From the NCBI RefSeq assembly GCF_007992835.1, contig NZ_BKBA01000008.1:124001-188000 (forward strand): DNA of 64,000 nt, in the 5' to 3' direction. How positions within the stretch are numbered: the first letter of the stretch is position 1; the number at the start of each line of letters is the position of its first letter. The notes under the pieces are model-generated. The model was given only the letters and a program-made list of their open reading frames with translations, was not told the origin of the DNA and did no database searches. Source of the DNA: Knoellia locipacati. GTDB lineage: Bacteria; Actinomycetota; Actinomycetes; Actinomycetales; Dermatophilaceae. Shown piece by piece: positions 41,222 to 45,211 of the stretch. A program made the translations under genes and the position numbers.

Positions 41222-42022
41222 ATGGACAACTGGGGAGTACGGGCGCGACGCGCGTGGCCGTTCGTCGCGATGGGTCTGGCTGTCGCTCTCTGGTGGCCGG
41301 CGGGCTTCGCGGGGCGTGCCTCGTGGATGCACCTGTCGCTGATGCAGACCGAGAACGGGATCGTGCCGCTCAGCGGTGGCGAGCTCTTCCTCGGGTCGCT
41401 CGTCGGGGCTGCCGTCGTCTCGGCTCTCGTGGCCGCACCGTTGGCCAGGCTCGTCATCGCGGGCGTGCTCACGGGGGCCGCGTGGCTGCTCACCGAGGCC
41501 GACGTGGTCTTCGCCCAGGGGGAGCGGGGTGTGCTCGCAGCCCTCGTGGGCCTCGGGCTCCTGCTCGGCCTCGTCGTGGGATCGCAGTCGATGCGGGGCG
41601 TGCTGCCGGCCGCCACGCTTCTCGCCATGCTCGCCGGTCTCACACCGGCCACCTGGCCGCGCGCCCTCCTGCTGGCCGCCGCGGTCGCGCTGCCGTTCTG
41701 GTCGGCGACCGCGGAGCGCGCCGCCCCGACCGCCATCGCGGTGGCACGGGTCGTCGCCACGTGGCTGGTGTCCGTGGTCTTCTCGATGAGCCTCTGGGCG
41801 GGGTTCGCCTCGCTCGAGGTCGGGGGCCTCGCCGACCCGAGGTCGGCAGCACCCGACATCGCCCGCGGGTTCGTGACCTTCCTCTGGGAGCGTGGCCTCG
41901 AGATCGTCAGGACGGCACCACAGGTCGACTCCCCATGGTTCTGGGGCGCGATCGTCGTGGCCGTGGGGCTCGTCATGGTGGCCAACACGCTCCGACGCCG
42001 CACGGCGCAGACCCCGGCCTGA
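41222..42022 (+). CDS. Membrane protein of unknown function, tandem copy 1
   Basis: A 266-residue protein with about seven hydrophobic segments and no recognised domain. It aligns along its whole length with the next gene: 'RRAWPFVAMGLAVALWWPAG' against 'RRVWPFVAMVVAALLWWPVG', 'PLSGGELFLGSLVGAAVVSA' against 'PLSGGELFLGSLVAAAVVSA', and 'GLEIVRTAPQV' against 'GLEIARTAPQV'. The two are clearly a tandem duplication, each with its own leaderless promoter. The function is unknown; an envelope role is only a guess. Confidence 0.78.
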   Translation: MDNWGVRARRAWPFVAMGLAVALWWPAGFAGRASWMHLSLMQTENGIVPLSGGELFLGSLVGAAVVSALVAAPLARLVIAGVLTGAAWLLTEADVVFAQGERGVLAALVGLGLLLGLVVGSQSMRGVLPAATLLAMLAGLTPATWPRALLLAAAVALPFWSATAERAAPTAIAVARVVATWLVSVVFSMSLWAGFASLEVGGLADPRSAAPDIARGFVTFLWERGLEIVRTAPQVDSPWFWGAIVVAVGLVMVANTLRRRTAQTPA

Positions 42023-42066: not shown

Positions 42067-42963
42067 ATGAGCGATCCACGCACGCGCGCCGAGGCGAAGG
42101 CCGCCACCACGGCGCGAGAGGGCCAGGTGGCGGACGCGTCTGAGGGCGAGGGTCGCACGGCACCGCGTGACCGGGGCGCGCTGGTGCGTCGGGTCTGGCC
42201 GTTCGTGGCGATGGTGGTCGCGGCGCTGCTCTGGTGGCCCGTCGGCTTCCTCGGGCGCGCGGAGTGGATGCACCTGCCGCTCACGCAGGCCGCGGGCGGT
42301 GTCGCACCGCTCAGCGGCGGTGAGCTGTTCCTCGGCTCGCTCGTCGCCGCGGCCGTCGTGTCGGCCCTGGTCTCGTCGCCGTGGCCGAGGTTCGGGATCG
42401 CCGCGGGGCTCACCGTGGTCGCCTGGGTGCTCAGCGACGGAGACGTCGTCGTCGCCGCGGGCGAGCGCGTCGTGCTCGCCGCCCTCGCGGGACTCGGCCT
42501 GCTGCTGGGCCTCGCCGTCGGCGCCCGGGCCACTCGCGGCGCCGTGCCGGTGGCGACCTTCCTGGCACTCGTGTCGGGGCTGTCACCGGCGACGTGGTCC
42601 CGAGGGGTCGTGCTCGCGGTCGCCGTCGCGCTTCCCTTCTGGGTGGCGACCTCCGACCGGGTGGCCCCCACGATCCTCGCAGTGGTGCGGGTCGTCCTCA
42701 CGTGGCTGCTTGCCGTCGTCGTGTCCATCAGCCTGTATGCCGGGTTCGGCGCGCTCAAGGTCGGCGCGCTCGCGGACCCGGCCGGTGCCGCTCCCGTCGT
42801 CGGGCGGGCGTTCGTCGACAACGTCCGCGACAACGGGCTCGAGATCGCGCGGACCGCGCCGCAGGTCTACACGGGCTGGATCTGGCTCGCGGTCGTTCTC
42901 GCCATCGCCTTTGTCGTGGTGGCGACCGCGCTCAAGCGCCGTCGCGCGCCGGCGGCTGCCTGA
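42067..42963 (+). CDS. Membrane protein of unknown function, tandem copy 2
   Basis: A 298-residue paralogue of the preceding gene. An extra hydrophilic N-terminus of about 40 residues ('RTRAEAKAATTAREGQ') precedes the shared membrane core. The copies have the same order of helices and an invariant 'PLSGGELFLGSLV' segment after the first, which is probably functionally important. TAACCT stands six bases before the ATG at 42067. It ends 90 bases before a convergent small secreted-peptide gene, with a hairpin between. Confidence 0.78.
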   Translation: MSDPRTRAEAKAATTAREGQVADASEGEGRTAPRDRGALVRRVWPFVAMVVAALLWWPVGFLGRAEWMHLPLTQAAGGVAPLSGGELFLGSLVAAAVVSALVSSPWPRFGIAAGLTVVAWVLSDGDVVVAAGERVVLAALAGLGLLLGLAVGARATRGAVPVATFLALVSGLSPATWSRGVVLAVAVALPFWVATSDRVAPTILAVVRVVLTWLLAVVVSISLYAGFGALKVGALADPAGAAPVVGRAFVDNVRDNGLEIARTAPQVYTGWIWLAVVLAIAFVVVATALKRRRAPAAA

Positions 42964-43006
42964 ACTCCTGCGGTTGCGACCCTGCGGTCGCGACGGACAC
43001 GAAGAA

Positions 43007-43033
43007 GGGCGTCGCACCCCTGCCGCGACGCCC
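43007..43033. terminator. Hairpin terminator between convergent genes
   Basis: GGGCGTCGC pairs with GCGACGCCC around a nine-base loop. A second weaker hairpin (GTTGCGACC/GGTCGCGAC) lies just upstream at about 42973-42994. Confidence 0.75.
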
Positions 43034-43053
43034 CACCCCCTCGTGCTGGTCAT

Positions 43054-43194
43054 TCAGCAGTTCGGGCAGCCCCCCGGCCAGATGATCGTTCCGGCGGTGA
43101 CCTCACCGGCGGTGTCGGCCGCCAGCTGATGGGCCCCCACGGGGACGAGGAAGGTCGCGAGGCTGAGGAGCAGGACACTGATGAGTCGGCGCAT
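43054..43194 (-). CDS. Small secreted cysteine peptide (46 residues), candidate signal
   Basis: A short gene with an AAAGG ribosome binding site eight bases before the ATG at 43194. The product starts with 'MRRLISVLLLSLATFLVPVG', a classical signal sequence with two arginines and a hydrophobic core, followed by AHQLAAD, a plausible signal peptidase site. The mature part of about 20-25 residues is acidic and ends 'AGTIIWPGGCPNC', with two cysteines in C-x2-C at the very C terminus. It stands alone and divergent from a TrmB/LuxR-type regulator, with a 104-base shared control region. This layout suggests a secreted signal peptide or a small redox or metal peptide. I know no family it clearly belongs to. 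Confidence 0.75.
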   Translation of the reverse strand: MRRLISVLLLSLATFLVPVGAHQLAADTAGEVTAGTIIWPGGCPNC

Positions 43195-43232
43195 CGGTGG
43201 AACCTTTCGTCGGACCCGATCGGCGTTCGGGT

Positions 43233-43244
43233 GTCAGCGCTGAC
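43233..43244. promoter_or_regulatory. Perfect 12-bp palindrome in the peptide/regulator control region
   Basis: GTCAGCGCTGAC is fully palindromic and lies 38 bases upstream of the peptide start and 54 upstream of the regulator start. CCCCT/AGGGG repeats flank it on the regulator side (43250-43277). It is the best candidate operator for the adjacent regulator. Confidence 0.55.
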
Positions 43245-43298
43245 TCTCGCCCCTCGCGGTCAGGGGTGCCTAGGGGTCGGCTGTGGCAGATTTGTGCC

Positions 43299-44366
43299 GT
43301 GACCGAGTTGAGCCACGACACCTCAGCACAGGGAATGTTCGGCGAGTTCGGGGTCTCGTCGGGGGCAGAGGAGGTCTATCGCGTCCTCGTGCGACTTCGC
43401 CATGCCACGCGGGCGGAGCTCGGGAGCCTCGGTGTGGTGCCCGAGGATGAGCTCGATGCCGCCATCAGCGAGCTCGGGGCGCTGGGGCTGACGGCGGAGT
43501 CGGCCTCCGGCTGGAGTGCCGTGCCCCCGGAGCGTGCGGTCGAGCTGCTCATCCACCGCGAGGAGCAGGTGCTCGCCGCCCGACGGGCCCGGCTCGACCA
43601 AGCGCGCGACAGCATCCCGCTGCTCGTCGCGGACTACGTGGACGGCAGCCGGACCTTCGTCAGCGACCGTGTCGAGCTCCTCGACGACCCCGACGTCGTG
43701 CGCTCGCGCCTCTTCCAGCTCACCCAGCAGGCCAAGCGGTCCGCGTGGTCGATGAGCCCCGGTGGCGCCCTCTCCCCGGATGCGGTGGACAGCTCGATCC
43801 CGCTCGACACGGACCTGGCCTCGCGGGGAGTGAGCTCGCGGATGATCGTCTCGACGTCGTCACTCGGCCCCACCCACTGGAACGAGTACCTCACCTCGAT
43901 CCAGGCCCTCGGCCACGAGGTCCGGGCGTCGGACACCGTGACGCTGCGCGCGATCATCATCGACGAGGAGATCGGCGTCATCCCCGACACGGAGTCGGTC
44001 CGTCCGGGCGCCTACGTCCTCCACGGCAAGGCGCTCGTCGCACCGCTCGTCGCGCTCTTCGAGGAGGTCTGGGACGCGTCGACGCCGTGGGCCGAGGACG
44101 AGGACCGGGTGGCGGGGCAGTTCAGCGAGGCCAAGCTCCGGCAGGTGGCCGTCCTCCTCTTCAAGGGGCACAAGGACGAGGCCATCGCTCGTCGGCTCGG
44201 CGTGTCGATCCGGACCATGCGCCGGCTCATCTCCGCGACGTTCGACGAGCTCCAGGCGAACGGCAGGTTCCAGGCGGGGGCGCGTGCGGTCGAGCGTGGA
44301 TGGGTCGGGTCGGACTCCGAGGTCGAGCCTCCGGGCAGTGGTTCGGTGACGGCACCGACGAGCTGA
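43299..44366 (+). CDS. TrmB-like N-terminal, LuxR-type C-terminal transcriptional regulator
   Basis: A 355-residue regulator with DNA-binding segments at both ends. The N-terminal winged helix ('EEVYRVLVRLRHATRAELGS' near residue 20) resembles TrmB. A coiled stretch 'AVELLIHREEQVLAARRARLDQARD' (residues 83-107) follows, then a middle sensor region with a PLD-like look ('LASRGVSSRMIVSTSS', 'LRAIIIDEEIGVIPD'). The C-terminal LuxR-type HTH is 'HKDEAIARRLGVSIRTMRR' near 297. CAGATT lies six bases before GTG 43299, so it is probably leaderless. It is divergent from a secreted-peptide gene and followed by a secreted-protein gene, both possible targets. Confidence 0.85.
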   Translation: MTELSHDTSAQGMFGEFGVSSGAEEVYRVLVRLRHATRAELGSLGVVPEDELDAAISELGALGLTAESASGWSAVPPERAVELLIHREEQVLAARRARLDQARDSIPLLVADYVDGSRTFVSDRVELLDDPDVVRSRLFQLTQQAKRSAWSMSPGGALSPDAVDSSIPLDTDLASRGVSSRMIVSTSSLGPTHWNEYLTSIQALGHEVRASDTVTLRAIIIDEEIGVIPDTESVRPGAYVLHGKALVAPLVALFEEVWDASTPWAEDEDRVAGQFSEAKLRQVAVLLFKGHKDEAIARRLGVSIRTMRRLISATFDELQANGRFQAGARAVERGWVGSDSEVEPPGSGSVTAPTS

Positions 44367-44493
44367 CGATCGGGGCACATCGCGGCCATGGCATGTCCGC
44401 GCCCCACGAATCCCTTCCACCGCAACGGTTTCCGAGTCGACAGTTGCGTCAGGCCACACACCGTGGATCTGACCGCAACGGAGGAGACCCCCA

Positions 44494-45099
44494 ATGAGCA
44501 CTGCACAGACGAAGTCCCGCAGGAACATCCGCACGGCCCTCGGCTCGGCCGCCGCCGTGGCCGCCCTCGCCGCCGGCGTCGTCCTGTCGGCGGGTGGCGC
44601 GCAGGCGCACGTCATCAACGAGCTCGCCCCGTCGGGCGCCTCGCCCTGGCTCTACAGCGAGTCGTGGAAGCTCACCGGCTACGGCTACAACACCGCCCCC
44701 ACCCACGTCGACGTCTACCAGGGCAACCACATCTCCGACCAGTACGCCCTCGACATGACGCCGTACGGCCTCAGCGCGGAGGGGCGCAACGTCTACCCGA
44801 TGTGGGACGGCATGACCGTCTACGCGATCTCCTCGGGCACCGGCGGCATGTACCTGCGCAAGACGATCAACGGCGCCGTCTACGAGCAGAAGGTCCTGCA
44901 CATGAAGAACCTGCGCTACGGCGTCGGTGCCACGGTCGGGACCATGAACGTCATCGGCTCGACGTCCAGCACCGGCACGAGCTCACCGCACCTGCACTTG
45001 GCGATCCACAAGATCGTCAACGGCACCCGGTATGCCGTGCGGCCGGTGGTCTGCGGGAAGGAGATCACCTCCCGCACCCTGACCTACAAGGGCTGCTGA
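44494..45099 (+). CDS. Secreted protein, M23 peptidase-like
   Basis: A 201-residue exported protein. The N-terminus has 'KSRRNIRTALGSAAAVAALA' and ends with 'AGGAQAHV', a likely cleavage site; the paired arginines leave Tat export possible. 'YQGNHISDQYALDM' and 'SSPHLHLAIHKIVNG' contain H-x3-D and H-x-H, the zinc-ligand pattern of M23 endopeptidases, but the rest is divergent, so peptidoglycan hydrolysis is only a reasonable guess. Two cysteines near the end may pair. GGAGGAG lies eight bases before ATG 44494. Confidence 0.68.
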   Translation: MSTAQTKSRRNIRTALGSAAAVAALAAGVVLSAGGAQAHVINELAPSGASPWLYSESWKLTGYGYNTAPTHVDVYQGNHISDQYALDMTPYGLSAEGRNVYPMWDGMTVYAISSGTGGMYLRKTINGAVYEQKVLHMKNLRYGVGATVGTMNVIGSTSSTGTSSPHLHLAIHKIVNGTRYAVRPVVCGKEITSRTLTYKGC

Positions 45100-45134
45100 C
45101 GCGGTCGGCGCCGCGTCGCCACCTTGTGGAGGGG

Positions 45135-45176
45135 CGTGCCGGGTCACTCGTCCGACAGGACAGGTGGCCCGGCACG
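45135..45176. terminator. Hairpin terminator between convergent genes
   Basis: CGTGCCGGGTCAC (45135-45147) pairs with GTGGCCCGGCACG (45164-45176) with one mismatch around a 16-base loop. It can serve both the secreted-protein gene and the convergent operon. Confidence 0.8.
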
Positions 45177-45211
45177 TCCGTGTGCTCGCGGGGTCGGGCC
45201 AAGCCGGGCGT

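Follow-up and report, generated by a model that had tools for sequence, protein, structure and literature searches.

The window, by which we mean the whole 64,000-nucleotide stretch of Knoellia locipacati DNA analysed here, contains a small peptide gene that lies divergent to a TrmBL2-like/LuxR regulator gene, and these two genes probably constitute a new pheromone/receptor-like pair that works by re-uptake and belongs to a widespread, unrecognised family in the Actinomycetota. In the mechanism that we favor, a small precursor, usually equipped with a Sec-type signal, would be exported and processed to release a short Trp-containing C-terminal peptide, the most likely cytoplasmic receptor of which is the regulator. 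The peptide would reach the regulator after re-uptake, or directly in the case of leaderless forms, and its binding would lead the regulator to alter how strongly the peptide gene and neighboring cargo are transcribed. In the window, this cargo may be a secreted M23 peptidoglycan hydrolase encoded in the same cassette. The broader proposal of a widespread Actinomycetota pheromone system, comprising Trp-core peptides (some encoded by 7-codon genes), TrmBL2-LuxR receptors, clade pherotypes and a varied cargo of lytic enzymes and antibiotic clusters, has in our judgment an even chance of being correct. The features of the window that bear on these proposals are collected in Table 1.

Table 1. Features of the peptide-regulator locus (positions in the window).
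Feature	Position	Strand	Basis
Accessory cassette with peptide, regulator and M23 genes	42964..45211	.	Empty sites in three congeners
Stem-loop directly 3' of the peptide stop, possible terminator, short U-rich tail	42997..43046	-	Fold
Peptide precursor ORF, 46 aa, predicted to be exported	43054..43194	-	ORF, SD, GC3 0.89, clade position
Shine-Dalgarno (SD)-like GAAAGG of the peptide gene, ahead of its ATG	43203..43208	-	Sequence
Perfect palindrome GTCAGCGCTGAC between peptide and regulator genes	43233..43244	.	Sequence; operator role unsupported
Regulator, 343 aa: TrmB-type winged helix, TrmBL2/PLD-like domain, LuxR/GerE-type C-terminal HTH	43335..44366	+	Profile, homologues
LuxR/GerE-type HTH of the regulator	about 44139-44276	+	Profile match
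Candidate secreted M23-type peptidoglycan endopeptidase, possible target gene	44494..45099	+	Pfam M23 3.5e-7

The peptide ORF translates as MRRLISVLLLSLATFLVPVGAHQLAADTAGEVTAGTIIWPGGCPNC, with a hydrophobic, signal-like N-terminus that is likely cleaved after VGA and a C-terminus, GTIIWPGGCPNC, that contains the core IIWPGGCPNC. The ORF exhibits a GC content of 0.67/0.54/0.89 at codon positions 1/2/3, the pattern that a coding frame would have here, and a string near-identical to its SD precedes the peptide of a relative (L017). The 46-residue frame, for which the preliminary description of this DNA gave a good ribosome binding site and a clear signal sequence, is present as claimed. The stem-loop that follows the stop has a folding energy of -37.8 kcal/mol (z -2.6), with 1 of 200 shuffled sequences folding equally well. 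Scans of the peptide locus with a consensus terminator and for promoters returned no site, and no Pfam or NCBIfam model scored above cut-off for the window peptide or for the core peptides of six relatives.

The divergent gene does encode a regulator: a profile built from 54 of its homologues matched archaeal TrmBL2 (PDB 5bpd) over positions 6-257 (E 7e-21) and NarL/GerE-type helix-turn-helix (HTH) domains over positions of about 261-330. When the window regulator is searched alone, Pfam gives only HTH and sigma-type families, all below cut-off, with GerE at 14.6 of 23.5 bits. GerE is above cut-off in three homologues (L128, L051 and L062), PF01978 is above cut-off in L051, and PF11495 is below cut-off in L128. 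The Pfam list of the window regulator holds no autoinducer-binding domain, and TPR families appear neither in that list nor in those of the three homologues. The nearest homologues start with M-[LF]xxFG, an N-terminus that favors the ATG at 43335 over the GTG at 43299 that had been proposed as the start. With this reassignment, the control region shared by the two genes is about 140 bp and not 104 bases as described previously.

This control region contains the palindrome GTCAGCGCTGAC. It is perfect, as had been noted, and by base-composition arithmetic about 0.07 perfect 12-bp palindromes would be expected in such a region. Nevertheless, its candidacy as a conserved operator is unsupported, as the 7 loci (of 242) that contain the exact string all belong to the genome of the window, with no exact match among the loci of other genomes, and the best-fitting string upstream of the six clade relatives differs from it at 3-5 positions. 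The genome holds one further copy of the palindrome, and the reversed-pattern control gave one site.

The peptide, regulator and M23 genes form one accessory cassette for which three congeners have kept the empty site. The cassette-flanking genes abut in these three Knoellia genomes (L203, L205 and L208) with gaps of 72, 22 and 79 bp, and are separated by 2,248 bp (2.25 kb) in the window. The left flanking gene was found in 6 of 8 congeners, and none of these six stretches contains the M23 gene or the regulator, with the right-hand flanking gene also absent from the stretch in three of the six. To the left of the cassette, the window has two tandem related membrane proteins (41222-42022 and 42067-42963; 60% identical), where each of the six congeners with a match has one.

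The 8 other Knoellia genomes have no orthologue of the window regulator, with the best match among them (5.4e-28) being to a regulator of a separate clade, termed CxxCW below. This absence, together with the fact that the exact window peptide sequence rests on a single locus, might suggest that this ORF arose by chance and that the association seen elsewhere does not extend to the window. We consider this very improbable, given that the ORF has an SD, a signal-like N-terminus, a GC3 of 0.89 and a hairpin, and that it shares its position and a WP core with the clade of its regulator, where a WP core stands at the equivalent divergent position in 6 of 7 members, the window counted.

The product of the third cassette gene exhibits a weak match to the lysostaphin catalytic domain (E 0.006), with an uncertain assignment of the first zinc ligand, and relatives at E<=1e-15 are found in none of 98 other genomes of the family. 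The gene may be controlled by the regulator. The cargo appears to vary among relatives, as a CHAP hydrolase adjoins the regulator in the Phycicoccus counterpart while an apparent acyltransferase, identified by eye, occupies that place in Humibacillus strains.

Linkage of small Trp-containing peptides with regulators of this type extends well beyond the window. We scored a regulator locus as positive when an ORF 30-100 codons long, divergent and no more than 650 bp away, exhibited an SD, a hydrophobic N-terminus, K/R, and a Trp in its last 14 residues; this rule was composed after examples were seen and was then left unchanged on controls. It was positive at 35 of 147 unique regulator loci versus 5 of 441 control genes (Fisher p 6e-18), where the controls were drawn from the other genes of loci L037-L115 and L177-L193; among the five positive controls, that of L101 turned out to be a DTSWGG peptide. 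The 147 loci are what remained of 166 after removal of 19 duplicates, and L040 and L049, which lie on separate contigs of a single Catellatospora assembly and are identical over 9 kb, were counted once. The rule misses peptides with a weak signal (L009, L010), one that is too far from the regulator (L013), two with the Trp outside the last 14 residues (L062, L068), same-strand peptides (L018, L020, L029) and the leaderless forms described below.

We scanned 50 whole genomes, those of 50 of the 79 loci and chosen for holding a regulator relative, for DNA encoding D[ST][ST]WGG followed by a stop. This yielded 15 sites, spread over 13 genomes, versus no site for the reversed pattern. Twelve of the 15 sites are peptides already found at regulator loci, and the other three have a family regulator within a 3-kb stretch (E 1e-10, 7e-8 and 4e-25, each value referring to one such stretch). 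Seven of the 15 sites were examined for regulators, and at one of these (L221) the regulator lies outside the 3-kb stretch. Additionally, differences across 25 peptide pairs, which are not independent of one another, number 122/66/215 at codon positions 1/2/3, as in coding frames. Among the differing codons, 153 are synonymous and 166 are not, and it is for a subset of the pairs that purifying selection is clear. The proposal that the peptide is conserved beside its regulator thus survives comparison with relatives, in that small Trp-core peptides occur beside regulator relatives in several actinobacterial families, but what is conserved is the position, size and core and not the whole peptide.

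The identity of the core follows the phylogeny of the regulator. Core classes require 8 changes on the regulator tree versus 58.2 when shuffled, with none of 200 shuffles as low, a result to which near-copies contribute. By the filters used here, 84 of the 147 rows of the tree have no peptide, 52 of these in one clade, and peptides are also missing from some loci inside peptide clades (L012, L120, L081, L100, L022 and L044, among others). Relatives of the regulator also occur in 89 plasmid records, 84 of them from Streptomyces, and on no viral contigs; among the 25 plasmid rows listed they are named simply as HTH or LuxR regulators or are unnamed. At one locus (L015), it is the peptide gene next to the regulator that is cut short, apparently, as judged by eye, where a mobile element has inserted. 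A different arrangement is found at L190, where two distant regulator paralogues (G000:C3:604893-605837 and 609667-610413) lie about 4 kb apart and adjoin what by eye appear to be purD and purA; similar facing pairs are present in several genomes of the family.

Several core classes can be distinguished. Within the window clade, the cores are, besides that of the window, IGWPGDDV in Phycicoccus, LVLWWP in two Humibacillus strains, LLWWPP in L011 and WIWPDD in Catellatospora, with L012 having none and the peptides of L009 and L010 having no convincing signal. A CxxCW class is present in Georgenia, Nocardioides, Phycicoccus and others. In three other Knoellia loci, each from a congener (L018, L020 and L029), a peptide of 35-36 aa that ends in C[VM]VCW and has no obvious signal is encoded just upstream of, and on the same strand as, a CxxCW-clade regulator. 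An SWGG class from Streptomyces and Kitasatospora was found in 16 of 79 loci, each searched over its full length (at most 9 kb); in 5 of the 16 the peptide is divergent, and in 11 it lies past the regulator 3' end on the opposite strand. Among 19 loci of further families, 8 contribute the types VIGWD, GDMGWQ, DSMGWQ, DPGWQ, NDMIWG, GDNIWM and VTWG; these 8 were picked by eye from 13 listed rows, with 5 set aside as not peptide-like. Trp is a feature common to the core classes, with the qualification that Trp was part of several of the filters. Some loci (L062:5488-5685, L068, L071 and L078) also encode small secreted-looking peptides that end in CGACYPDVI or CGGCPLDVI downstream of SWGG-type regulators, with two copies in L062 and L068 and, in L062, a JmjC-domain protein beyond them; these look like a separate peptide product.

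Linkage was also observed in a related family of the same order (f6), in which 39 of 197 genomes have a regulator relative and the peptides have a W[DE]W core. An SD-preceded W[DE]W ORF occurs on the divergent strand in all 30 loci fetched, which are the best 30 of the 39, versus 0 of 107 control regions; one additional locus (L120) has no such peptide, giving 30 of the 31 examined. The core is repeated 2-6 times in 10 of the 30 loci, and tandem cores are found in 15 loci overall, with the other five (L077, L209, L229, L230 and L241) each having the core twice. In 9 of the 30, the ORF reads as leaderless, with 7-17 codons from the start nearest to the SD, with longer alternative starts existing in L162 and L175. 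The extreme case is MKSWDWF, a conserved 7-codon ORF with a strong SD and a stop that lies about 370 bp upstream of the regulator in L162, L171 and L172 and is, to our knowledge, among the shortest candidate genes known.

Other short strings, possible operators, recur upstream in other groups. TGCCATGGCA occurs with no more than one mismatch in 5 of 12 CxxCW, 5 of 29 W[DE]W, 0 of 6 WP and 0 of 16 SWGG loci, but also in 9 of 52 loci of the "none" class. GGACATGGC is present upstream in 17 of 29 W[DE]W loci and TTGGTGAGG in 13 of 16 SWGG loci.

A stand-alone Lant_dehydr_C (PF14028) protein follows the f6 peptide in all 9 loci inspected, identified by Pfam at L177:7094-8050 and L180:7081-8028 and by eye in seven other f6 regions; no record of this protein on plasmids was found. 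Its presence is what recommends the main alternative, namely that the small ORFs encode precursor peptides from which ribosomally made natural products, RiPP-like or antimicrobial, are derived and that the regulator is a pathway switch that senses something else. Tandem cores also occur in RiPP precursors, and some Streptomyces pairs are near JmjC or MbtH-like genes (JmjC by Pfam in L062, the rest by eye). We nonetheless regard this alternative as unlikely, at perhaps one chance in a handful, as no modification enzyme is recognised beside the window pair and none is seen by eye among the listed neighbors of the pairs in Georgenia and Nocardioides. Sec-like signals are present on many precursors, core and regulator co-vary, and the 7-codon leaderless genes would leave an enzyme no leader to act upon.

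The C-x2-C motif raises a different prospect, that the regulator simply controls an exported peptide that serves in redox or metal chemistry or in the envelope, with no feedback. The preliminary description had allowed for a redox or metal role, and in its favor the motif recurs in the CxxCW class and a peptidoglycan hydrolase candidate adjoins the window pair. However, C-x2-C is missing from the listed cores of the W[DE]W and SWGG classes and from the other WP cores, which makes such a role unlikely as a general function; it is Trp, subject to the filters mentioned above, that the classes have in common, and a leaderless product of 7-17 residues cannot be an envelope protein exported by Sec. 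We therefore hold this explanation to be improbable, more so than the natural-product precursors. Repeats of the core behind a signal, the change of core with clade and the shrinkage of precursors to near-core size argue that the core itself is the thing recognised. With the regulator as the constant partner of that core, a pheromone/receptor pair is the explanation we favor.

Peptide signalling via cytoplasmic receptors is well known in the Firmicutes, while signalling via this type of regulator in actinobacteria is undescribed in the literature searched, and no description of the regulator-peptide pair or of its cores was found in those papers. A separate, phylum-wide signalling family is one option for what these loci represent. 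If signalling of this kind is real, a ligand would be provided for many regulators now named only helix-turn-helix or LuxR, and that ligand could be read from the neighboring DNA and synthesised as a short peptide. Direct tests of signals would then become possible for lytic enzymes and for antibiotic clusters that are silent, and 7-codon candidate genes, of a kind commonly passed over by gene finders, would be added.

Among known systems, the regulator resembles archaeal TrmB/TrmBL2 proteins in its winged helix and following domain (the 5bpd match above), but differs in its additional C-terminal LuxR/GerE-type HTH and in its linked small peptide. It shares a LuxR-type C-terminal HTH with the actinobacterial LuxR regulators covered in PMC3466318, the main text of which has no occurrence of TrmB, small peptide or signal peptide. 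LuxR-AHL quorum sensing differs in relying on an autoinducer-binding domain, which is not in the Pfam list of the window regulator. The f6 peptides resemble precursors of class I lanthipeptides and thiopeptides in adjoining a stand-alone Lant_dehydr_C, whereas the window pair has no recognised PF14028-type gene beside it. There is also a likeness to the RRNPP/Rgg-SHP systems of the Firmicutes, in which a short precursor also adjoins a one-component regulator and supplies a short linear C-terminal core, as the precursors here are predicted to do. These systems employ a TPR receptor, whereas the regulator here is TrmBL2-like with a LuxR HTH; they are found in Firmicutes, whereas the present putative signalling pair is found in Actinomycetota and has a Trp core. 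The pair would work like RRNPP systems yet lacks the TPR receptor by which those systems are defined.
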